Below, one piece after another: positions 14,720 to 44,014 of a stretch of 64,000 bases of DNA. Under the pieces are notes generated by a model, which saw only the letters and a program-made list of their open reading frames with translations, was not told where the DNA came from and made no database searches. The DNA comes from Lasiosphaeris hirsuta (lineage: Eukaryota > Ascomycota > Sordariomycetes > Sordariales > Lasiosphaeriaceae). A program made the translations under genes and the position numbers. The stretch is taken from the NCBI GenBank assembly GCA_030549175.1, contig JAUKUA010000004.1, positions 5,022,001 to 5,086,000 of the forward strand. Direction: 5' to 3'. Position 1 is the first letter of the stretch; every line of letters starts with the position of its first letter.

Positions 14720-15330
14720 TAGTTGCGGAATTTAGCTTCAGTAGTAATAATTGTCTATAGCTAGACGTAACAAGGCCTCTATAAGTTACGAAAGGAAACG
14801 TTATCATTCGACGTAAGTACTAAGGACGTGAAGAAACCTTCATGGTAGTAAATACTACGCCATCGAAATAAGTACTAATACTAGCCGTAGACCAGTGGAA
14901 GGAAGGTCAGTAGTACTTAGCTTAAACCCTAATTTATATGGTGTGAGAGACAGGCGGCTAGGGCCCCGGGCCGACGGGTAGCTAAGAAAGAATCTTTATA
15001 TATCTTGGTATCATTATATATTATACATAGCCTCTATACAAGCAACGAGGGCCCCGTGACGAATCCTCGAGAGGAAGAAGCTTCCCAGTCCTTTTTAGAA
15101 AATAGACCTAGAAAGATTATCAACTGAACTTTAGTAAAGCTAAGGGGTAATCAACCTTATGAACCCTTCTACTCTCTCCTGACTTACATCTACGAAGTAT
15201 CGTCTGTTACCCTCTGTAACGTCGTTCTATCTCCCTACATCAATCTACCTCCCTTACCATTTATGTAACACAGGCCAGTCACCGAGACTGGGGTGTAGCA
15301 ATCACAAGGTGTGTCACCTTCGGTGTAACC
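14720..15330 (-). repeat. Repeat copy A, inverted relative to copy B, strongly decayed
   Basis: Its reverse complement matches 15440-15970 (copy B) along several hundred bases. Shared blocks include GCTTCTTCCTCTCGAGGAT, CCCGTCGGCCC, the GTCTCTCAC run and CGTCCTTAGTACTTACGTCG. Most mismatches are transitions, with A carrying T or A where B has C or G. The two copies face each other around about 15340. It is probably part of a retroelement or of its LTR; no coding frame survives. Confidence 0.7.
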
Positions 15331-15349
15331 GAACTGTAGAGCTATGATC

Positions 15350-16265
15350 TAGATCAACTCAACCGTCCACTCCAGGCCGGCAATGGTGTTAGTCTGATTC
15401 AGAGCTTTCACATGAAGAGAGGGAGATGATCTTCGCAACCCAAAGCCCTGGTAGTTGTGAGAGAGAAGGTAGATACAGAGAGATAGAACGATCACAAGAA
15501 AGATAGCAGACGATACTTCGCAACTACAAGTCAATAAGAAACAGAAGGGTTCACAAGGTTATATTGCCCCTCAGCTTCACTGAAGTTCAGCTGATAATCT
15601 TTCTAGGCTGTTTCCAAAAAGGACTAGGGAGCTTCTTCCTCTCGAGGATCCATCACAGGCCCCTCGTCTCTTGTATGGAGGCTATGTACAATATACAGGG
15701 ATACTAGGATACATAAAGATCCTTCCTTAGCCACCCGTCGGCCCAGGGCCTTAGCCGCTCGTCTCTCACGCCCTACCAATCAGGGTTCATACCAGGTGTT
15801 ACTAACCCTTCTCTCGATAGTCCATGGCTGGTATTAGTACTAACTCCGATGGCGTGATATTCATGACCACGAAGGTTCCTTCACGTCCTTAGTACTTACG
15901 TCGAATACCGACGGTTCCCTCATGACTTCTTAGAGGCCCAGTTGGGCTTAGCTACAGCCACCTGTCACCACTGAGGCTAGACTCCGTAGAACGTCGGGGT
16001 TCAGGTTGTCCACTGGGACCGCTACAATAACTAAGGGGCCTGTCATTGAAAGTCCTGCTGAAACATCATGTGGGTCTCTTGGCTGGCTAATGCAGCCGTT
16101 GACCACGCTGCTGAGGTTGTGTGGCCGTCCTTGACAATCCGAGGTCTGGTGACGTTGCCTAGCGCAAGCCAGGTCCACTGGGTGGGCTGGCTTGGCCTGT
16201 GAATGGTGTCTGGGATCCCGGCCTAGGCCGAGAACCCATCGACCTGTGCGTGGCACTGGTCATGT
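15350..16265 (+). repeat. Repeat copy B, least mutated
   Basis: This copy is GC-richer than A and C. It aligns inverted to A and direct to C. A TGTAACAC motif at about 15265 and the complementary TGTTACA-type end suggest an LTR-like boundary near the centre of the palindrome, but no paired LTR was established. A 102-codon minus-strand frame at 15948-16256 has no recognisable motif. Confidence 0.65.
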
Positions 16266-16389
16266 GTTGCGTGTCCCACAGGTTGAGCCACGATGTGGCC
16301 ACCGTTGTGGCCATCGCTGTGGGCTCAGGCCAAGGAGGTGATCCACCCTGTTGACCTTAGGTGAGCCCAGCAATGTGACAATTTACCAC

Positions 16390-16930
16390 TTTAAGTTACG
16401 AAGATTATCTCCCTTACCTCCGTGTGGAAGCTCTACATCAGACTAACACCACTGCCGACTACTAATCCTCCTTCTAATAGTCTACGGCCGATATTAATAC
16501 TTACTTTGATAGTATAGTATTTACTACTACGAAGGTTCCTTCACGTTCTTAGTACTTACGTTAAATAGTAACGTTTTCTTTTGTGACTTATAGAGGCTGT
16601 ATTAGTTTTAGTTATAACTACCTATTATTAATAAAGCTAGACTTCGGAGAACATCGGGGTTTAGGTTCTCTACTAGAACTATTACGATAACTAGGAGGCT
16701 TATCATTGAAAGTTTGCAAAAATACCATATAAGTCTTTTAGCTAGTTAATATAGCCTTTGACTATGATATTAATGTTATATAGCCGTCTATAACAAACTC
16801 AAAGTCTAATAATGTTACTAACTACGGGCTAGGTTTATTAGGTAGCCGGCTTATCTTATAAGTAATGTCTAAGATCTTAACTTAGGCCGAGACTTAGCCT
16901 AAGAATTTATCAACCTATGTACAGCTTAGT
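16390..16930 (+). repeat. Repeat copy C, direct relative to B, heavily C-to-T / G-to-A mutated
   Basis: It aligns with B's 15810-16265 in the same order: TAGTACTTACGT, GAGGC, TAGACT..GTAGAAC-type, ATCATTGAAAGT, TAATATAGCC. Nearly every difference is a C-to-T or G-to-A change relative to B. Its first 70 bases instead match the reverse complement of 15360-15445, so the unit has been rearranged. Confidence 0.7.
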
Positions 16931-21562: not shown

Positions 21563-24500
21563 TTGATTGATTGAAATTTTATTGTGCAGGGTTATGCCCC
21601 GTAGGGGCAATCGCACAGTAAGGCTCTCGCAGTCCCCGCAAACGCCTGAGGCACCCGGCCCACTACGATAATGAGATCCTCCGCCCTGATTCCACCGATA
21701 GGAGAGTCTTGGCCCGGGGTCCCCGGGCCGACAATACCATGCTCCCCCGAGCTCCGAACCCCCTTTAAATGCCGCTCCCGGGCCTCACCTGCCCGGCTCG
21801 CTTGCCCATCAGCCTAAGATACATAAAAACCTCCGTGGGAAAAAGCCATCCTTTTTTAATTTGTTAGGGCCCTAGCCAGGGCTTTCTCTCTAGTTTCAGT
21901 CTGTGTGGTATTTTCTTCCTACTTTCGTTGTTGCCAGTATTTTCTTTCTAGTAACTTATCCGCGAAGCTTCCGAACAGGTCGAGCCATTTCTTAGACCTC
22001 TTCTATACTATCTGTAGCGGGCTGCCGTTATAGCTAGGAAGCGTCTTTGTGTTCAGTAAGTACGTAAACATGTGTCCCCGGTTCTTATTAGTACCATATT
22101 CACATAGTCCCTAGGTCTCCGGGTCGTGGTTAAATTATTTATAATACTCCTTGAAGTCCCCATGGCCGGTCCTTTCTGCCAACAAGGCCGCGTGGGCTTT
22201 GTGGGACAGGGCCAGTTTTGGTAGCCTGTCCTTCTAATAGATCTCTTAGTACCGGTAGTCCTCGGGGGCTCCGTCTTACCAGTGTCATTGTAACCGGCGT
22301 TTTCTTTCTTTCGTGTGGCATACTCTCTATTTACTATCTAATACGGCGGCCGTAGCTATGGCTTTTATCGGGGCCTCCCTCCCGACGCCTCTCGTCTGGA
22401 GGAAGTCGTCGTGTAAGGGGGACGTCCCGCCAACGTAACGGGTGATCTTCTCGAGAAACGTATTGTTCTTCCTACTAGGGGTACGTAACTTATATAGTTT
22501 TCGGACTACCGGATATGTCTGGCCTAGCCGGATAAGCTTTTTCGCGAAGGTGTCCTTCCGGGCCTTAACGAGATACTAGGTTATAGGGACTCCGGATTCT
22601 AGGTGTAGTATCGTGATCTTTGTAATTTTCTATACCGGTAGTGTCGCTTAGAGGCTGTCATTAACTACCACGTCTAGTATATTATTAACGAAGTACTCTT
22701 TATACCGGCCGTACCATATCTCTACCACATATAGTAACGTTAGTAGGAGGATCGTCTTAACTGCCTAGACCGTAAGCCTTAGGGCTAACCCTTTGACTTT
22801 GCTCGAGATGTGGTTTAGGAACACGGTCGTTAACTTACCTCTGGCTGCTACTACCTTCATATATGCCCTGAAGTAAAATATTAAGTTAAATTATATTTCT
22901 AGTTACTGGAGTGCCTCCTTATGTGGTATGACGGCTTCTTAGATAAGAATGTCTAGTCTTGAGCCCTTCTTTGGCATAAAGAGGATATACTTACTCTTCG
23001 TACCGTCGAAGGGGACTCCGTTATCCTTTCCCTAGGTTAGAAGCTTCCCGAGCCTCGCCGTAAGTTTAGCCTAGACCGATTTCTCCGTCTTACCCGTTAT
23101 AATAACCGTGATATCGTCCGTATAATAGTAGGTCTAGTCGTCCTTTACTATTATCGTAAGATATAAGGTAAAGAGGATAGGTAAGAGGAAGGAACCTTAT
23201 GATAGTCTACCTAGTATCGGCCATTAGGCCCTCGTTAAGTCTTCTCTAATCGTAGTTACCTAGTCCGTTAGGAAGGTAGTATAGAAGTAGGCTATGGTAT
23301 AGTCCTATCTTATCTTTATAAGCTTCTACTTTAGTCTTCGCTTCTATATTATATTAAAGGTACCTTTTATATCGGCCGTAACTACCCCTACTATAAGGCC
23401 TCTTATCCGTATATCCTTTATATCGTAGATTACTATTACTAGTAGGTCCGTTACTAACTATTATAATATCTTATCTATATATTATAGATAGATAAGGCTT
23501 TCTTATATAGCTAAGACGTCTATTCTCCTTACTACTAACCTTTCTAAGCTTTTACTAACATATAGTAAAAGTGAGATCGGTCTAAGGCCTTTCGTAGTCA
23601 CCTTAAAACGTCTTATTTTAGAGATAGGTACTATTTCCGCGTGTTTTTATACCTTAAGATACTACCTTACCTATAGGTAAGCCCTATATAAGGTAATAAG
23701 TATAACTGTAAGGGTCGAGGAAGTCCTAGTCATTTCCTTTCCTAGGCTTATTATCTTATCGTACTAAGCCGCCTTTAGTATAACTATTATTACTTCGTCC
23801 GGTCTTAATGCCATCGTTTATATCCCATAGCATATCTTATAAGCCTCCTCCTCCGTGACTTCGGTATTCTATAAGATACATCGTAGAAGTCTAAGTTATA
23901 AGATACCGAAGTATTTAATATCTATAAGATTAGTACTATACCGTAGTACTACTAGCTCTTCGTATATAATAACTACTATATATGCCGTTATATAGCTTAT
24001 TAGTCTCTCTCCCCTTAGGATAAGGCTTGGGAAGGCGTCTGCCGGTACCCGGCGTTCTTACTACCTTATCACCTTTTATAAGTCCTTTAGTTTAGTTATC
24101 TTTTAGACCTTTCTATATTAGTACCCCGTATAGGTTGTCTTAACTTTTCTCTTATATACTACTTACGTTAGGGCTCGTGTCTCCTTATCTCCTTAGTCCT
24201 CGGCTACCCGGAGGTACGTTCTCGCCTCTTCGAGCTCCTCGTTCCATTACAGCTATCTCTTTCCATCGGATTATCTCCTTCTTCTGTACTTACATAGTGG
24301 TAGCTTTATAGCCTCCTAAGCTTTTTAGGCGGCCTCTTCTATTTCCTATCTTCCGTCTATCCTCGTAAAGAGGTCTCGTACCCGTTTCTTTACCTCGGTC
24401 ACCTAATCTTCTAACTTAAGTAGGCTAAGCTTCTAAGTAAGGTTTTTCCTACCGGTTCTTTTTAGTATCGTCACTTCTAGGGAGAGGTAGTCCGAGCCCG

Positions 24501-27480
24501 TGGTCTTATCCTTCTCGATGTTACCGTAGGCCTATAGGTCCGAGTAGAAGGTAAGGTCGAGGACGTTTCTTCCCTAGGTTAGTATATCCCGTACTAGGGA
24601 GTATAGTCCCTCTCTGTTTACCTACATAACGATAGCCTCTACTACCGGCCCCATGTACCTCTTTACTTACTAGAGTAGGTGTCCCGTGTTAAAGTCTCCC
24701 GTGATCAGTAGTTCCTTGTCCCCCTTCTCTAAGTCTAAGACCTCTTAGATACACGAAGGTTAAGTCCTTATGTTCCTATATATAGAAAAGACTCGTAACC
24801 CTTCGTTTTCGATCTTAACTACATTTCTTAACCAGAAGTTACCTACTAGTTCCTAGTTCTAGTCCTTAACGTAGTATACCACCGTCTCTAGTTTACTATA
24901 AGTCTTATTCCCTATTACCGCCATATAAGCTAGATATACCTTAGTCTCGTCGTATTTCGTAAAGTATCACGGTTCTTATACGAGGACTAGGTCGTACTTA
25001 CCTTAGGTACTCTAGTCGAGTAGGGAGTCATAGTACGTAAAAGTCTTAGCTATGTTTCTTACTATAGCTCTGATTATGTCGAGATAGGAGTACCTAGTTT
25101 TATCTCTTTCTATTAGATATCTAACGGGGAAGGGGATAGTAGTCTTATAGACTTAGGTAGGAAGTTAGCTTTCCGGTACCTACGTACGATTAGTAGTAAA
25201 TTCCTTTATAAGATCTGGACGTACCTCCTTTTCTAGGGATTAGGTAACATGTCTTTAGAAAAGATATCTCATATAATTAAGGTTACCGTCGTCTTACGGA
25301 GGTTCGGCATAGGTAGTAGCTTCTTAGACGGGATATCGTTACTAGGTGATTTCGCCGAGGGTCCTCCTAGTCTGATTACCTCTCCTATCGGCCTTACCTA
25401 GGCGTCTTTTCTGGCGGCCTACTCCTCGGAGTAAGCTTAGATACTTCGGAACAGTTTCTCTCTTTATTATCATGTTACCTGGTAGGTATCTTAGATATCT
25501 TCTTAGTCTATGTCCTCGTCAGTCTCTATGGCCTTATATATTATTTAAAAGTAGGTTTCGAAGTTAGTCTTTAGAGCCGGTCTCTCGTTTGCTTAGTCTT
25601 AGGCTAAGGTCCCGATATTTCCCGTGGGCTCTAGGGCTTCTGTCATTTCCTTATCTTCGACCGTTGGTATAGGGACGTCTTCTGGTCGTTTAGTGGAGAT
25701 AGGGGTCACTCCGTATATGTCCGTTGACTCTGTCTATACCGGAGTCTTCCTGTCTGACGTAGGAAGTGCCATTTACGTTACTACTATTTCCTTAGCCTTT
25801 GTTTCAGCTTTGGCCTTAGCTTCTATAAAGGTTCTTCCCTTCCTTTTCCTAAAGACCTCCTTTTCCGTGGCTATCCTAATCGCCGCTTTCTCGTTTTTCT
25901 TTACCTTAGCCTTCTTCTAGGCTTATGTGTTTACCTTGTCCTTACGGGCCTTAGTTCCTACCTTCCTTCCCTCCTTAATGTCTACCTTGCCGGGAAACAG
26001 GAGCCGTCCCTCGTTCGTAACCCTAGGTCTGAGGATATACGTGTCTATGTTATCGGGCCTATGTGGCCCTAGGTAGTTAGGGCATTGTAGCGGTTCTAGG
26101 TACTTGTCTATATGTTCTTTCCGGCTATACCTACTACATATCGCCTTCGTTATACAGTCCCTTATCTAATAAAACCCGTAGTATGTCTCGTATAACGGGA
26201 TCTTTCTTTTCGACGGGAGCTTTCTTACGATAGCCGATCTGAAGAGTCGGAAAGTCTTCGTTAGGATGTACGTGTCGTTGAACGATACTATCTATACCCC
26301 GTTTCTCGTCCGGGCCGTTCTCACGGGTAAGATGCCTGTTAAGGCCTGGGCCTCCTGTTTTATCATAACCTCGGTAACCTCGTAGGGTCTCTTTAGGGTT
26401 ATGGCTGTTTTTGGGACTCTTTCTAGGACGTAGGTAATCTATTCTACGTTTTCCTAAAGGAGTACCTCTGCTGCCTTGGCTTTCGCCATGGCTTCCGTCC
26501 TCTTATCTCAGTCTCCTTTCTGTAGGAAGATTAACCATCCGTTTCCTTTGATAGTAACTTTTACTACCGCCGGCTTCAGTCCTATCACGTTGGATAATCT
26601 TAGGCTGATCTCGCCTGCCGTAGCCCGGGCCTACGGGTGACTAGCCGGTACCGTGAGCATAAGTCTATTCGGTGCCGGTAAGCTGGACCTACTTCTCCGG
26701 CCGGTCTCTAGCTTTGTCTGTGCCTTAGGCCTGGTGTCTAGGTTGACATTTGTGGGCCCTCCCGGGGCCGCTGCCTTGGAGGCCTAGCTTGAGGTCTTTC
26801 TCGCGGGGGCCGTTTTCCATTCGTTGGCTGTGTTGGTAGCCTGTGTCGTGGCGGCCCCTGATTGAGCCTGTGGTATGGTGATCCTTGGTTAGGTCGTTTT
26901 GTTAGTCGACTGGGCCAGTGATGGCGCTGTCCCTGTCGGGAGGGGTGGGTTGGTCGAGCAGGAGGCCCTGTCGTTCTTTGGCGTGGGTGCCACGTAGGCT
27001 TCCGGGGGCGGCGTCTGGATCGAACCGTTGTCGATACCTACGTAGGGCGTGGGGTTGGGCGAGGTCGTGGAGCCCGACGGTGTCGGGGTCTTCGCGGTTC
27101 CCACGGTCTGGTAGATCACCTCCTTGATCCCAAGGAGGGTCTCTCTTCCCCAACGGACGTGGTGTTCGCCCTTGGGGATTTTCGCGAAGCCCTGGTCTAG
27201 GGCCTCGGAGAGGGTCTTAATCACCTCCCACTTCGCCAGGTACTCGGCGTCGTGTTCGGCTTGTAGCTTCCTGGCGTAGTCGGCTAGGTTGGCGTGTGGT
27301 GGGCGTTGCTCAGGTGCCATGTTGAGAGCGTGCGCGTGCTGCGCGCGGGTTGTCAGGGTGGGTAGGGATGCCCGGAGGCGAAAAGAGGTCGTGATCAGGA
27401 TGTGGTGTTTTGGGGTAGCGAGTCCCGTGGTTGTGATTGGTCCGATTCTTTCGAAAAAATTAAAAGAAGGGAGAGAGCTG
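21563..27480 (-). mobile_element. Tad1-like non-LTR retrotransposon (LINE), near full length, RIP-decayed
   Basis: The element lies on the minus strand between two identical 14-bp target duplications. Its 3' end (21563 side) is a short (CAAT)n-type tail instead of poly(A), as in fungal Tad1 elements; its 5' end is at 27480. On the minus strand I can follow a gag-like ORF1 starting at 27320, an endonuclease block (LLITGDFNTGH, about 24680-24710), and a reverse transcriptase in which the usual PQGSPLSP box has become LS*GSFLLP (about 23163-23211). The catalytic box is YTDD (23113-23124), followed by the RT/RNaseH-linked KGLALRLTV-type region near 22750. Many TGG and CAG/CAA codons have become stops, so it is dead. 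It is more than 5 kb of strongly TA-enriched sequence with no other genes. Confidence 0.9.
26889..27320 (-). pseudogene. LINE ORF1 (gag-like), N-terminal part still open
   Basis: It starts MAPEQRPPHANLADYARKL, followed by a helical, charged region (EHDAEYLAKWEVIKTLSEAL) and a Thr/Pro-rich linker, like ORF1 proteins of fungal Tad1 LINEs. It is open for 143 codons to a TAA that probably replaced a CAA codon. Beyond the stop the same frame continues with recognisable lysine/alanine-rich coding sequence (KKAKVKKNEKAAIRIATEK near 25900) broken by further stops. The start is 160 bp inside the element's 5' end. Confidence 0.7.
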
Positions 27481-28910: not shown

Positions 28911-30980
28911 CTAGACGATATAGATCATCTGCTTCTCCTCTGCAAACCTCCCCATTCCTTCCCCATCCATGACTCCATGAAGATAGCAGTCGCCCAGGAA
29001 TGTGTGGCAAACCGTTGGCCCGATGCCAGGAATATCTCTTACGCCCACGTCCCGTAGAACAACAGGCGTCTTGCCTCCGGGAAACAAGAATATCTCGTCG
29101 GGCCTAGGAAACGTCAATCTCGCCATGTTCGGCACCAGCCCCATTCGGCCCTCCCGCGACACAATAAAGGCCCGCATCTGCGTCGCTGCTTTCACCGCAT
29201 GACTCACGGCGCCGATTTCACCCTCACCATCTATCCCGTCTCCCAGAGCCGGAGCCTGCAAGCTCTCCACCCAGGCCCGAACCCGTCTACAATCCTCCTC
29301 TGTGGCCCTCCTGAACCCAGCAACTCTCTGCCCTACCTCCGGAATCACCATGGCGTCACCACACATCATCCTCGCAAACTTCCCTTCCCACTCCCCATCT
29401 ACCATGCCCAGTTCCTCCCTCGCGACTTCCAACCACCACTTCGCCGTATCCCTCATAGCAGCATCACTCAGCCCTACCATGATAGCCGAAGCCCTCCTCA
29501 GGGCATCCACCCTCACCCCTTGCATGGCGAGCACCTTTGCACCGCCGGCATCCTCGTACACCTCCATCCCCTGCACGCCAACCCCCCCACAGGCATCGTT
29601 CAGCGGCAGCATCCCCGCGAGCCGATCGAGCGTCGCACCGGCCGCAGCGGGCTGGCTCAAGTCCATAACCCAGCTCGGCAGCCCCGGCATCCGCTTCTCC
29701 TCCTCCATTTCCGGCGGGCGGCAGAGGACATGCAGACTCCGACTGGCCCGGGCAATATGGAGCACCGCCTCGGTGTAGACATGCCCAACCGGCTTGGTAT
29801 AATCCGGCACCAGCGGCGCGGCGCCGTACCACTCCGTCACGAGCGGCAGCAACGCATAGACTTTATCCCTTGAATCCGTCGCGCCGCGGTAGCGAAAGGT
29901 AGGCAGCACCCGCGCCAGCGAGACGGCCCCCCGGGTACGGCGGAGCTCGTCGAGGTCGCGGGCGGCCTCGACGGGCTGGTTGAGCATGTCGCGTACGCCG
30001 GGCACGGCGGCGCAGCACGTGTCGCGGTGGCGCTGAAAGTTCAGCAGCCCGGTGAGGACGGTGTCCCAGGGCATCGAGACCGGGCCGTAGAGGAGGGTGC
30101 TAGCGCGCGGGAGGAGGCATTCCTGCGCTGTCCAGATGCGCGACCACCACGGGCGCGTGGCGAGCCAGTGGGCGGCGCGGCGGGCGTGAGTTGGCGGGGT
30201 TTGGGCATCATCGGGGTCGGGGTCGGGATCGAGGTCGAGGTAGGGGATTGTATGCAGGTGGTGGTCCGCTGCGAGCAGGCGGAAGAGGGCAAAGGCGTGG
30301 AAGATGCTGTCGTTTGTGAGGTCAGGGTCGGTTGCGGCGGCCAGGAGGGCCCGGGTGTCCCGGTCGTCACCGTGCCATGTGTGTGGTCGGGTGCGAGTGA
30401 TGAGGAAGTTGTCTGGGGCAGGGCCGGGAATGGGTGTTTGGATGGAGCGGTGCAAGTCGGCGGCGAGATGGCCGATCTCGGTGTCTTGCCATGTGTCCAG
30501 GGCGGATGCTAGGTCGGCGAGGAACTTGTCTGTTTGGAGCAGTAGGGTGTCCACCTCTTGGCTCTGGGCCGGATTGACAGTGGGAACAGGCGTGTCTGGC
30601 TCTTCGCCGAGCCACAAGAGGGCTCCCGAGGTGTCTGTGTAGATGTCGCTCATCATGGCCACTTGGGCGGCCTTCTCGTCGTTGTCGGCCTGGTTGATAC
30701 ACACGGCATCTACCCAGAGCGTGCGCTGCGAACCAGCGAGTCGGAGTCTCTTCAGCGCGGCATGGAGGTTAGGGGTAACCCGGAATGGTTGGCCGCTGAG
30801 ATCGATGGACGTGTTGGAGTGCTGAGAGCCCCAGACGTAAGAGAGGGCCTCATACTGCGGGCCATGGTGCAAGCTGACGACCTGCAGCGAACACTGGATC
30901 GGCTCGTCGCTTGAGCCTGCGTGAAGGAGCAGGAGTCGAGTCTCCTTATTCTGTGTGTTTAGAGGGGTATAGACTGCCAT
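28911..30980 (-). CDS. HET-domain (heterokaryon incompatibility) protein
   Basis: Single exon, 689 aa, minus strand. All three HET blocks are present: QYEALSYVWG near the N-terminus, then LWVDAVCINQADNDEKAAQV followed by DIYTDTSGALLWLGE, and ARAAHWLATRPWWSRIWTAQE. The C-terminus (GPTVCHTFLGDCYLHGVMDG) is the common end of this family. HET proteins trigger programmed death of fused cells or respond to non-self and pathogen cues; partners are usually STAND proteins or polymorphic het genes. The start is the ATG at 30980, since the upstream open stretch has no ATG. The gene is intact. It lies between the broken methyltransferase and a MITE in the recognition-gene-rich part of the window. Confidence 0.93.
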   Translation of the reverse strand: MAVYTPLNTQNKETRLLLLHAGSSDEPIQCSLQVVSLHHGPQYEALSYVWGSQHSNTSIDLSGQPFRVTPNLHAALKRLRLAGSQRTLWVDAVCINQADNDEKAAQVAMMSDIYTDTSGALLWLGEEPDTPVPTVNPAQSQEVDTLLLQTDKFLADLASALDTWQDTEIGHLAADLHRSIQTPIPGPAPDNFLITRTRPHTWHGDDRDTRALLAAATDPDLTNDSIFHAFALFRLLAADHHLHTIPYLDLDPDPDPDDAQTPPTHARRAAHWLATRPWWSRIWTAQECLLPRASTLLYGPVSMPWDTVLTGLLNFQRHRDTCCAAVPGVRDMLNQPVEAARDLDELRRTRGAVSLARVLPTFRYRGATDSRDKVYALLPLVTEWYGAAPLVPDYTKPVGHVYTEAVLHIARASRSLHVLCRPPEMEEEKRMPGLPSWVMDLSQPAAAGATLDRLAGMLPLNDACGGVGVQGMEVYEDAGGAKVLAMQGVRVDALRRASAIMVGLSDAAMRDTAKWWLEVAREELGMVDGEWEGKFARMMCGDAMVIPEVGQRVAGFRRATEEDCRRVRAWVESLQAPALGDGIDGEGEIGAVSHAVKAATQMRAFIVSREGRMGLVPNMARLTFPRPDEIFLFPGGKTPVVLRDVGVRDIPGIGPTVCHTFLGDCYLHGVMDGEGMGRFAEEKQMIYIV

Positions 30981-31218
30981 GTTGGCATGATGTTGTGGGT
31001 TCTGAGCATTTGCAAGCTGAACCAAGCTGCTTCCCCACCAGGCTCCAGGCACAACACCACACCTTTAATCCCCAGCTTAGGTCGAGCGCTACGAGGCGCC
31101 AGGGAAGAGGTCCTGTTGGCTGCAATCTCTGCCAATCAGCTCAACAATTCACGCAAGCCCGCCGCACCCCGCACCCCACCCCCCCAAGCCCTCCCGGGTG
31201 CACACAAATGAGTACAAC

Positions 31219-38623: not shown

Positions 38624-39448
38624 ATGGCCCCCCCGAAAACCTACCTCCTCCCCTCGACCTTCGACATTCCCTCCATCCCGCTCGGCAACCTCCTCGCGAA
38701 CCCCTACACCCCCCTCCGCGCGCTGGCCGTCCTTCCGGCCGACCACCACCCGCCGACCACGACGACGGTTCAGACGAACCTCTCCATCACCCGCACCGCG
38801 GGCCGCAGCGCCTCGGCCACCCTCTCGGCGCAGCTGCTGGGCCTGGTGGGTCTCAGGTTCAGCGCCGAGATCTCGACCACAACATCGACGACGTACTCGG
38901 CGGCGCGGGTCACGACGCAAAGCTTCGCGGGGGACCCCGATGAGGCCGTCATATACAAGGCTGTTACCGAGAGTCTGCGCGCAAGCAGGGTGCTAGGGGT
39001 TTGGGGCGGGAAGTTGTTCCTGGTGGTCGGGGTCAAGGTTGCCGAGGGGTTTACCGTCGCGCGGGAGACGGGGGTGCGGAAGGGCGTCGGGTTGGGTGGT
39101 GATGGGCCGGCGGTTCCTGGCGTGGATGTTGGCGGCGAAGTAGCTGGGCTCAGCGAGAGAGGGGAGACGGACGAGTACGGGGTCGAGGGGGAGGTGGTAA
39201 TTGGGTACCGGGTGCTTGTGATCAGGCGGAAGGGGTGGAAAGGGGAGGCTATGGAGTTGGAGGAATACAGGACGAGGAATGAGGGGAGGATGCTTGGTGA
39301 TGATAGCGATGGCGGAGAGGAGGAGCCTGGGGTTGATGCTACGGAGCTCCTGGCCGAGGACCTTGATATGGAAAATGAGGATATGTCTGTGAAGAGGTTT
39401 ATAGTCGACAGTGAAGAAGGCCAGGCCGTCGTTCTTAGCGTGGCATGA
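38624..39448 (+). CDS. Gasdermin-like pore-forming cell-death protein (HET-Q1/RCD-1 type)
   Basis: Single exon, 274 aa. The N-terminal 215 residues follow the pattern of fungal gasdermin-like proteins: TYLLPSTFDIPSIPLGNLL, a VQTNLSITRTAG strand, SAQLLGLVGLRFSAEIS, VLGVWGGKLFLVVGVKVAEG, ARETGVRKGVGLG and IGYRVLVIRRKGW. The last 50-60 residues are an acidic tail (DDSDGGEEEPG, EDLDMENED) ending in RFIVDSEEGQAVVLSVA. In HET-Q1, the Podospora homologue, a protease removes a C-terminal piece of about 5 kDa and the freed N-terminal part makes membrane pores that kill the cell. Length and layout fit that scheme. It converges with the protease gene 92 bp downstream. The cleavage site cannot be read from sequence alone. 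Assignment rests on pattern and context. Confidence 0.75.
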   Translation: MAPPKTYLLPSTFDIPSIPLGNLLANPYTPLRALAVLPADHHPPTTTTVQTNLSITRTAGRSASATLSAQLLGLVGLRFSAEISTTTSTTYSAARVTTQSFAGDPDEAVIYKAVTESLRASRVLGVWGGKLFLVVGVKVAEGFTVARETGVRKGVGLGGDGPAVPGVDVGGEVAGLSERGETDEYGVEGEVVIGYRVLVIRRKGWKGEAMELEEYRTRNEGRMLGDDSDGGEEEPGVDATELLAEDLDMENEDMSVKRFIVDSEEGQAVVLSVA

Positions 39449-39540
39449 TATGGAAGCAGCAATCTAGGGAATAGGGGGGGGGGGGGGGCGAGGAAGAACG
39501 CTATATTCAAAATTTGTCTGTTTCACACTCATTATCGCTA

Positions 39541-41255
39541 TTACCGTCTCTCTGGGTGTCTCGCGAGCGCGGATACCAATCTCGCCGTCTGTACGTCCTC
39601 GCTTAGTTTGAAAAAGATGAAGGGCGCAACATAGTACCTTCTGTCTCCCGCGTGGATGCCAATTTCTGTCAAGTTCCCGGTTAGAGAACAAAACAAGGTT
39701 GGAAGCAGACTCGGAGTTATGGTCGTAGTACCTTTGAACATCTCAAATACCCCCCGGCGGGTGCGCATCAGTCTCAGATCCTCTGAGGTAAAATCCTTTG
39801 GGTTTGCTACCGCGTATTCGAGCAGCATGACGGCTATTGCGGTGGCGATGATAGTTGCAATAGAACAGCCTGACATAGACCGGGCCACGCCCTTCCCCGG
39901 CCAATCCGAAACAACATCAACGCCCAAGGTGCCGAAAACAGCTTCATCAGAGCAAAGGGGCGGGTTATACTTTAACTCAAACGCGCCGTATCGGTTAGTA
40001 GCTCTGACTGAGATGACCGGCGCTCCCAGACTGGCCGGGAACATCTCATTGCTGTTGAATCCTTTGTTGTTGGCTGCTGCGAAGAATGTGATAGCGCCTC
40101 CCTTACTGTAAACTGCATCTGCAATAGCGTTCCGGATCGCCTCGACTGGGTAGGAGAAGCCAAAGGGCAGTGAGACAAAGTCAACCTTCCACTCTTTGGC
40201 GGCGATGCGAATTGCCTCGGCTATAGCACTTTTGGCTGGTTCACCAAGGATTCGACTGTTCTCTGCCACACGCGCTACATAGATGTCGGCGGGGCACCTA
40301 AGCTGCAGGAGAAGAGCTAGAAGGTGTGTCCCGTGGCCGTCGGTATCAACTGGGTGAGAAGAGCCCCCAACCAAGTCTTTCCATTCCTTGATGCGACTAG
40401 AGCGGCCGGGGGGAGCGAAGGCCGGCACGCTCTCATCGTATCCAGTGTCCAGGATGGCGATCTTCCATGGGATAACATTCGGTACCGATTTTGCCTTGTT
40501 CTGGAGTGTAAGGCTTAGCATGGTCATGCCTTTGAGCCATGCGTCAGGTTCCATGACTGCTGGGATCGGCGTTTCGTCAATCGTGACCTGTGTTGGAGAT
40601 CTGGGCCGGGATGTTGGAGATAAGGCCGCCTGTTCAAATTGATCCAGCTCGGAATCCAACCCTCGGTGCTCTGAGCTCGGGTCGGGGACTGGGGTTTCCT
40701 TTAACTCCAAATGATCCTCATAGCTAATTTTCGAACAGTAGCCAAAGGCTAAAAAGATGGCATCGAAGTCAATATTGGCTTCCGAAAGTGCGCTGGGTGC
40801 GAGATCTTCAAGGGCGGAGAGCCTTTGTTTCCCCTCTTGGCCATCATTCTCCGCTTCTCTCCGGGCCAGGGCAATATTGTCCAAAATGGGAGTAACCGGA
40901 AGCCGTCTCGTACTAAAAGCCGACTAAGATACGTTAGGGAGATTTCGAAGCGGATGGCAGCTCTACTTACTGTGGTGTTATGTTTGGCGGCGTGTTTGGC
41001 TCCGGAGTCTGGGAGAGGGAGACTCGACAAGGCCGTCTCCAGTTGGAGGAGGATGTCTTCCAGAGAGGGGGCATGTTCGATACGGCGTTTTCCAGCGTCG
41101 GAAATTTCCAAAGATTTCTTTGCAAATATACGCAGCCAGCCGCCGAGACTGCTGAGTTTGGTATTTGTCTTTTCCTTGGGGATTTTATTGACCTGGTCTG
41201 AGAGCCATAGGAAAGTGTTGCGGGCGAGAGTGAAAAGAGGGTACTGCTCCTCCAT
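39541..41255 (-). CDS. Subtilisin-like serine protease (S8), HET-Q2-like partner of the gasdermin
   Basis: Three exons, 40971-41255, 39732-40923 and 39541-39665, give 533 aa (introns 47 and 66 bp, phases agree). The catalytic triad is complete: Asp in KIAILDTG (about 254), His in DGHGTH (about 292) and Ser in SGCSIAT (about 449), with the oxyanion Asn in FFAAANNKG (about 380). The 200-residue N-terminal part is helical (YPLFTLARNTFLWLSDQVN, SLEDILLQLETALSSLP) followed by an acidic linker. It looks like a regulatory or sensor region; there is no signal peptide, so the protease is cytosolic. The ATG at 41255 is the first in frame, but coding-like sequence (SAAWQLKILDLYAK) continues upstream of it, so a 5' exon may be missing. 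It is convergent with the gasdermin-like gene. Confidence 0.88.
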
Positions 41256-42532: not shown

Positions 42533-44014
42533 TTACTTGGGACTCGACAGCGGCGACCAGTCCGCATCATCCCCACCAGACCCGCGCGCCGTGCTCTCCT
42601 CGTCACTATGCCTCACTCCATACCCCGCTTCCATCTCAATATACGCGTGATCGCCAAACGAGACCTCGGACGTCGTGACCGCCATCCCGATGCCCGCCCC
42701 GCTACTGCCCCCCTTGATCCGGGCCTGCTGCATCATGGCGGAATGGTACGCTGACGTGGCCGAGGGGGAGTGGGCGTGGGCGTGGGCGCGGCCGGCCGAG
42801 GGGTGCGAGTTGGAGCCGGCCGCGGAGGAGGAGGTGGGCAGGTCGTGGCCGCGGAGGTGCAGGAAGAAGCGCGGGAAGGAGGGCATGCAGCCGACGAGGA
42901 TGGTGCCGCAGTATTCGACCATACTAGGGGGGACGGGCGGGGGGTTAGCGAGGAGGGTGGAAGGGTGAGGGAAGGAGGGGGGACGTACGTCCAGATGCCG
43001 ACTTTGGTGATCAGCCAGGTCAGATCGGGGTCGTGGAGGAGGGGGATGCGGAAGGCGACGCCGATGGCGGCGATGGCGCATGTTCTGGGACCTGTTAGTT
43101 TTGTAGTTAAAAGAAAAAGGGGAAGGGGGGTGGTGGGGGGACGGACAGGATGCCGACGCCGAAGACGGCGGATATCCCGAGCTTCCGCTTCATTGGTAAT
43201 TGTAGGTGCCAGATGGCCCACAGCGGCGTGATCAGGATGCCAATGTCGAGAAACAGGTTGACGGCGCCGGCGACCACGGTCGCGGCCGCCACGTCGATGC
43301 AGTGGCCCTCAATAAAGGCGTTCCATGTCTTCTCGCGCGGCGAGCACTGGAAGATAAAGGTGAAGGTGGCCGAGGTATAGTAGGCAGCGCTGAGGAAGAC
43401 GAGGATATGGATGGCCCAGAAGACCGAGTCGCGCGACTGGCCGGTGCAGAAGATGCGGCGGAGCTGGAAGAGGATGGAGGCTTTGGCGGCGAACATGGTT
43501 ATAGCGTTGGTGATCTCGGCGACATAGCTTTGCTGCTTCGTGTTAGTGCGCGAGTATGGTCCACGGTGTTCCGGGTGGGGACTTGCGTAGGAGAGTCTCG
43601 AGACGTGGACCAGCCGAACGTCGTAGAGATGCCGGGAGAAGCCATTGATGGAGGCGTCAATGAAGAGGGCGTCCCACACTAGGATGCCAACCTGGATTGT
43701 GTTAGACAGTGGCCAAACGGACTCTGGTTTCATTCGCGTTCGTACCGTTGCAATGATGGCAAAGTCTATCGCAGTGTTAGAACCCCCGACATTCAGGCGC
43801 ACCACAAAATATACTGACATTCTTCTACCCTCATCTCTCTCAAGATGAAGGCCTTGGTATAAACGCGTATGGCGACAGCAATCGTCATCAAGGTCATGCA
43901 AACGATGGCGACGCTGAGGACGGCCGGATGCAGGGTCTCCGGGTCGACAAAGTTGGGCGTATGTCCCGGCGGAGGGATCATCGCCGGGAGCTCATTGAAG
44001 TCAGCGTCGGCCAT
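42533..44014 (-). CDS. Second fungal rhodopsin-domain-like membrane protein, with a micro-exon and a GC-AG intron
   Basis: Six exons, 43819-44014, 43746-43765, 43587-43691, 43147-43532, 42989-43084 and 42533-42923, give 397 aa with all phases matching. Blocks: PAVLSVAIVCMTLMTIAVAI, LREMRVEEYFAIIATVGILV, FSRHLYDVRLVHVSR, YVAEITNAITMFAAKASILF, FWAIHILVFLSAAYYTSAT, VVAGAVNLFLDIGILITPLW, AVFGVGILTCAIAAIGVAF and GIWTMVEYCGTILVGCMPSF. These match the fungal rhodopsin-like family. Exon 2 is only 20 nt. The third intron (43533-43586) starts with GCAAGT, a classic GC donor. The cytoplasmic tail (about 110 residues) is His/Ala/Ser-rich. It is distinct from the gene at 31655 in intron layout and sequence. 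Likely a plasma-membrane protein; ligand unknown. Confidence 0.88.

Follow-up and report, generated by a model that had tools for sequence, protein, structure and literature searches.

A gasdermin/S8 protease gene pair in Lasiosphaeris hirsuta whose protease lacks the sensor-type domain of its paired orthologues

A fungal gasdermin gene lying end to end with a gene for an S8 (subtilisin-type) protease raises the question of whether the two form a working regulated-cell-death module or one that has been altered. Such a pair is found at positions 38624-41255 of the 64,000-nucleotide stretch of Lasiosphaeris hirsuta (Sordariales) DNA analyzed here (the window), which spans bases 5022001-5086000 of contig C9 (5,892,575 bp, in a genome of 44.4 Mb and 14 contigs). 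A first-pass annotation had described the pair as intact. This holds for the reading frames, both of which are open; however, alignment with its L. hispida orthologue shows the protease to be short of 347 residues, a whole domain included. The explanation that we favor, and regard as somewhat probable, is that a two-gene cell-death module has lost its sensor domain, leaving a disarmed trigger in the form of a weak or dead protease and a gasdermin that persists uncut.

The protease gene and its surroundings are laid out as follows:
39449..39540, no strand: convergent intergenic gap, 92 bp
39541..41255, minus strand: S8 protease gene (Q2L type), 533 aa, three exons (product identical to P0004; PF00082)
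40971..41255, minus strand: exon 1, residues 1-95
40924..40970, minus strand: intron 1, 47 bp, GTAAGT...CTTAG (agrees with P0004)
39732..40923, minus strand: exon 2, from residue 96, carrying the proposed deletion junction and the S8 domain match
39666..39731, minus strand: intron 2, 66 bp, in frame
39541..39665, minus strand: exon 3
40663..40668, minus strand: proposed deletion junction H181/R182 (blastp pieces against the L. hispida orthologue; Pfam)
39772..40464, minus strand: Peptidase_S8 domain, residues 249-479 (Pfam)
40447..40449, minus strand: catalytic Asp254
40333..40335, minus strand: catalytic His292
39862..39864, minus strand: catalytic Ser449
40165..40167, minus strand: Pro348, where 54/56 other sequences have Ser (alignment)
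39850..39852, minus strand: Ile453, where other sequences have Pro (41/56) or Ala (13/56) and none has Ile (0/56) (alignment)

The gap between the convergent genes is exactly as first described, and the spliced protease product has exactly the sequence of public protein P0004 (533 aa), annotated as "peptidase S8/S53 domain-containing protein [Lasiosphaeris hirsuta]". The earlier claim of an S8 protease with a full Asp/His/Ser set is borne out by the triad D254/H292/S449 and by a PF00082 match above the cut-off (E 3e-7; 30.5 bits versus 21.8); the stretch ahead of the S8 domain measures about 240 residues rather than 200. With its triad kept and a gasdermin gene within 10 kb, the protease is assigned to the Q2L S8 type.

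When aligned by blastp to the 901-aa L. hispida orthologue (P0005), residues 1-181 match residues 1-181 at 67% identity and residues 183-533 match residues 529-901 at 76% identity, such that L. hispida residues 182-528 have no counterpart. The DUF7580 (PF24476) match of P0005, at residues 199-523, lies wholly inside this absent segment. A Pfam scan did not find PF24476 in P0004 but found it in all 7 other proteases scanned; in precomputed Pfam assignments it is present in 9/9 orthologues paired with gasdermins and in 45/58 protease matches, the window's own record counted. With the domain present in L. hispida and in eight further paired orthologues, a clean, in-frame loss in the L. hirsuta lineage would be the simpler direction of change. 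Two other accounts of the absence were rejected: the introns, at 47 and 66 bp, cannot conceal the domain, and its displacement elsewhere finds no support in the genome. A whole-genome search with the L. hispida orthologue recovered both flanks at this one locus; inside the absent segment its sole match has 34% identity over residues 347-440 and lies on contig C12. A family search giving 24 DUF7580 matches in the genome, with the best candidates scored, placed none at the gasdermin/protease locus.

A profile of 11 of 15 loci drawn from these genomic DUF7580 matches, namely those with no stop in the match, retrieves protein kinases (IRAK4, E 9e-5; the MLKL pseudokinase, E 0.011). The absent segment may be termed kinase-like by way of its Pfam family, the profile having been built from other DUF7580 copies, and neither an HRD nor a DFG motif is apparent by eye in the orthologues, so that the domain could be described as pseudokinase-like. 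Proteases fused to predicted kinase-like domains are mentioned in a review (PMC12881547). No mention of DUF7580 by name was found in the literature searched.

The plus-strand partner shows the following features:
38624..39448, plus strand: fungal gasdermin gene, 274 aa, single exon (open frame; profile match; fold match)
38624..39295, plus strand: predicted pore-forming domain, residues 1-224 (boundary inferred)
39287..39301, plus strand: R222-M-L-G-D226, proposed cleavage site (inferred from conservation)
39296..39445, plus strand: C-terminal tail, acidic (net charge -15), residues 225-274, putative inhibitory piece

The single-exon frame was correctly delimited in the first-pass annotation, and the gasdermin-like identity proposed there is supported by both profile and predicted fold. 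A 16-sequence profile of the family matches HET-Q1 (E 1e-11), RCD-1-1 (E 2.7e-5) and bacterial gasdermins. Upon removal of the distant member P0074, done to check whether the HET-Q1 match depended on it, that match was weaker but kept (E 9.6e-8) and the bacterial gasdermins were still matched, while RCD-1 was absent at E <= 1. The predicted structure matches the gasdermin N-domain fold, with RCD-1 (PDB 8JYZ) as the best structural match; the solved HET-Q1 structure 9uv9 was not among the best 50 matches listed in either fold search. The 274-aa protein searched alone against Pfam and PDB matched no gasdermin, nor did a three-sequence profile, and a structure predicted from 3 sequences only was unusable (predicted local distance difference test score of 31).

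Inspection of the gasdermin alignment reveals that R222, M223, L224 and D226 are invariant in 15/15 aligned sequences and lie between a variable stretch and the acidic tail, the mean conservation being 0.97 for the R-M-L-G-D stretch versus 0.57 for the tail after it; the distant P0074 lacks R-M-L. Negative charge of the tail is seen in 16/16 sequences, with P0074 cut using a looser pattern. In HET-Q1, cleavage after F238 removes about 40 C-terminal residues (PMC10989679); by analogy, the L. hirsuta gasdermin would likely be cut at its R-M-L-(G)-D stretch.

Gasdermin/S8 protease pairs are themselves an established kind, about 63% of some 1,900 fungal gasdermins being clustered with S8 proteases (PMC10197012); what is specific here is an orthologous module without its sensor-type domain in one lineage. 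Nine of the 14 close gasdermin relatives share a contig with one of the matched proteases, where contigs of equal size were taken as the same contig and adjacency was seen for one of the nine couples (consecutive locus tags V8F06_014486/7 on an 11.5-kb contig) but not for the other eight. All nine proteases carry PF24476, including P0023, for which no S8 domain figures in the precomputed list. Gasdermin and protease distances show a modest correlation over 10 pairs (r 0.47, with 36/5000 permutations as high), in which co-evolution and species phylogeny are inseparable. The first-pass annotation had staked its proposal on a gasdermin fold and on a protease of the type neighboring gasdermins, and both were found, the latter through the pairing in relatives.

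The remaining protease carries two changes at predicted substrate-binding or active-site positions of its S8 domain. At position 348, equivalent by alignment to Ser125 of subtilisin BPN', a near-invariant residue of the predicted substrate strand is altered, and at position 453, equivalent to Pro225 of the same enzyme, a residue conserved in close relatives is altered. The S8 core has 90 columns with at least 95% conservation across 22 outgroups; L. hirsuta departs from these at 5 and L. hispida at 2, with one column in common. Protease rate counts were made with 22 outgroup proteins (P0006-P0028 without P0016, an odd-looking gene model): the L. hirsuta and L. hispida branches number 41 versus 24 changes for the whole protease (p 0.046), a count inflated for L. 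hirsuta by unreliable alignment at residues 175-181 beside the deletion. For the gasdermin the branch counts are 16 versus 16.

Several observations weigh against a disarmed protease paired with a persisting gasdermin. The protease frame is fully open, with both introns retained and the triad present, and frank decay through stops or frameshifts is thereby rejected. Only 1/47 columns at least 85% conserved among 57 other sequences is altered in it, and its rate excess is small and, when the S8 core is taken alone, not significant (16 versus 7, p 0.093). The alanine at position 453 in 13/56 sequences means that the wider family is not invariant there. Further, 13/58 S8 matches lack DUF7580 (the window's own and one partial record counted), and therefore the sensorless state alone is no proof of decay. 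For its part, the gasdermin departs from 14 of the 81 columns that show at least 92% conservation across 13 outgroups, as compared with 11 for L. hispida. On account of the open frame, retained introns, triad, conserved S8 columns and small rate excess, either the domain loss would be recent or some protease function remains.

In its ancestral form, the module might have operated through a kinase-like DUF7580 sensor, fused to the protease, that responds to a trigger; the triggered protease would cut the gasdermin, most likely at R-M-L-(G)-D, so that the acidic tail comes off and the pore domain can permeabilize the membrane. In L. hirsuta, the in-frame deletion of this sensor and the S348P and P453I changes, at predicted substrate-binding/active-site positions, are the reasons for thinking the trigger disarmed. 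The first-pass proposal of the protease N-terminus as the sensor finds no support, the sensor-like domain of the paired orthologues being deleted and a 181-residue N-terminus left before the junction; its deduction that two intact partners imply a protease normally held inactive likewise gives way, as the putative regulatory domain is absent and positions 348 and 453 are changed. In a live genome, a sensorless protease next to a gasdermin whose candidate site is unchanged would have to be weak, silent or kept in check by other means. Among these the residue changes make a weak or dead protease the best guess, and it would be the most economical reason for the coexistence of both genes.

It is possible, if rather doubtful, that loss of the sensor instead left an active protease, as in HET-Q2, with survival secured by a silent gene, restraint by the 181-residue N-terminus or an uncut gasdermin. 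An uninterrupted frame, a complete triad and the conservation of the S8 core would accord with this, as would the description of HET-Q2 as an S8 protease of 388 aa (PMC10989679) and a review model in which a constitutively active sensor can arise by rearrangement (PMC10197012). It is countered by the unchanged R-M-L-G-D of the resident gasdermin, by S348P and P453I, and by the description of het-Q1 and het-Q2 as idiomorphs at one locus, not neighbors (PMC12881547). That the deletion reflects faulty assembly, or is private to the sequenced strain, in a species with an ordinary sensor-protease-gasdermin module, we consider quite unlikely; faulty assembly would leave the same two substitutions unexplained. 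The deletion is called from the assembly of a single genome, but the exon is contiguous in a 5.9-Mb contig, the junction is clean, in frame and near the domain edges, and the public gene model agrees, though perhaps from the same assembly. An ordinary, fully working module with the residual N-terminus as sensor could draw on the conservation of residues 1-181 with L. hispida and on both open frames, yet it is highly improbable given the absence of a domain kept in all nine paired orthologues together with the active-site changes.

A further reading, which we put forward as speculative and unlikely, would make the locus a natural intermediate between a HET-Q type incompatibility locus and an ordinary module of sensor, protease and gasdermin: the sensor deletion would have unleashed a HET-Q2-like protease, made bearable next to a cleavable gasdermin by second-site active-site changes or by strain polymorphism. 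Were this true, protease and gasdermin variants lethal upon fusion should be segregating among other strains. How a controlled death module is converted into a locus for self/non-self recognition is an open question for fungi, and under the pseudogenization model a rearranged, constitutively active sensor starts an incompatibility system (PMC10197012). A locus at which the sensor-type domain is gone while executioner and protease adjoin offers a concrete case for testing that step.

The genome contains at least eight gasdermin-like loci, the window's included (profile E <= 2.2e-6), the further ones, at least seven, being L010 1486-2289, L042 and L045-L049 (contigs C8, C12, C9, C7, C11). An S8 or CHAT match lies within 10 kb at no fewer than 4/8 of them (at least 3/7 of the further loci), one of the four, C9:4589607, resting on a match below the Pfam cut-off; at the C8 locus the nearest listed S8 match is about 12 kb off. 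A weak gasdermin-like frame on C12 (L032 4445-5047, C12:216445-217047; E 0.0028) lies at a distance of about 1.3 kb from a locus with both DUF7580 and S8, where the kinase-like domain is retained. Within the window, a HET-domain open frame of 717 residues (28911-31064, minus strand; PF06985, E 4e-30), separated from the gasdermin by about 7.5 kb, hints that incompatibility-type genes are clustered here. Past the protease, the nearest Pfam-matched frame among those scanned is a fungal rhodopsin-domain frame (43107-43991, minus strand; PF20684). Elsewhere in the window are an open frame with the ubiquitin-like domain ULD_2 (PF22893; 19993-20778, plus strand), nested inverted repeats at 14726-16713 (arms of up to 376 nt at 77%, with direct repeats 660 nt apart) and an AT-rich stretch at 22001-26000 (41-43% GC, TpA/ApT 2.0) resembling the product of repeat-induced point mutation.

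Among known systems, HET-Q1/HET-Q2 of Podospora anserina offers a close counterpart: HET-Q1, a relative of the L. hirsuta gasdermin by profile, has 278 aa as compared with 274, and both have a short C-terminal tail (PMC10989679, PMC12881547). HET-Q1 is cut at F238, the conserved candidate in L. hirsuta being R-M-L-G-D (PMC10989679). HET-Q2, here likened by description and not by sequence, is an S8 protease without a large extra domain, like that of L. hirsuta. However, het-Q1 and het-Q2 are idiomorphs, i.e., different genes at one locus, whereas in the one genome examined here L. hirsuta has both genes adjacent instead of as alternatives. The two-gene clusters of Q2L S8 proteases and fungal gasdermins share the gene content and close linkage of the L. 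hirsuta pair, but Q2L proteins are described as often being multidomain sensors (PMC10197012); such a fused domain, frequent in the class without being universal, is not present in the L. hirsuta protease, which lacks the kinase-like domain that the paired orthologues keep. Finally, RCD-1 of Neurospora crassa (PMC11760362; PDB 8JYZ) has the same gasdermin fold, but acts as a pair of allelic forms with no inhibitory C-terminal domain (PMC11760362), whereas the L. hirsuta protein ends in an acidic tail of 50 residues and is encoded next to a protease gene.
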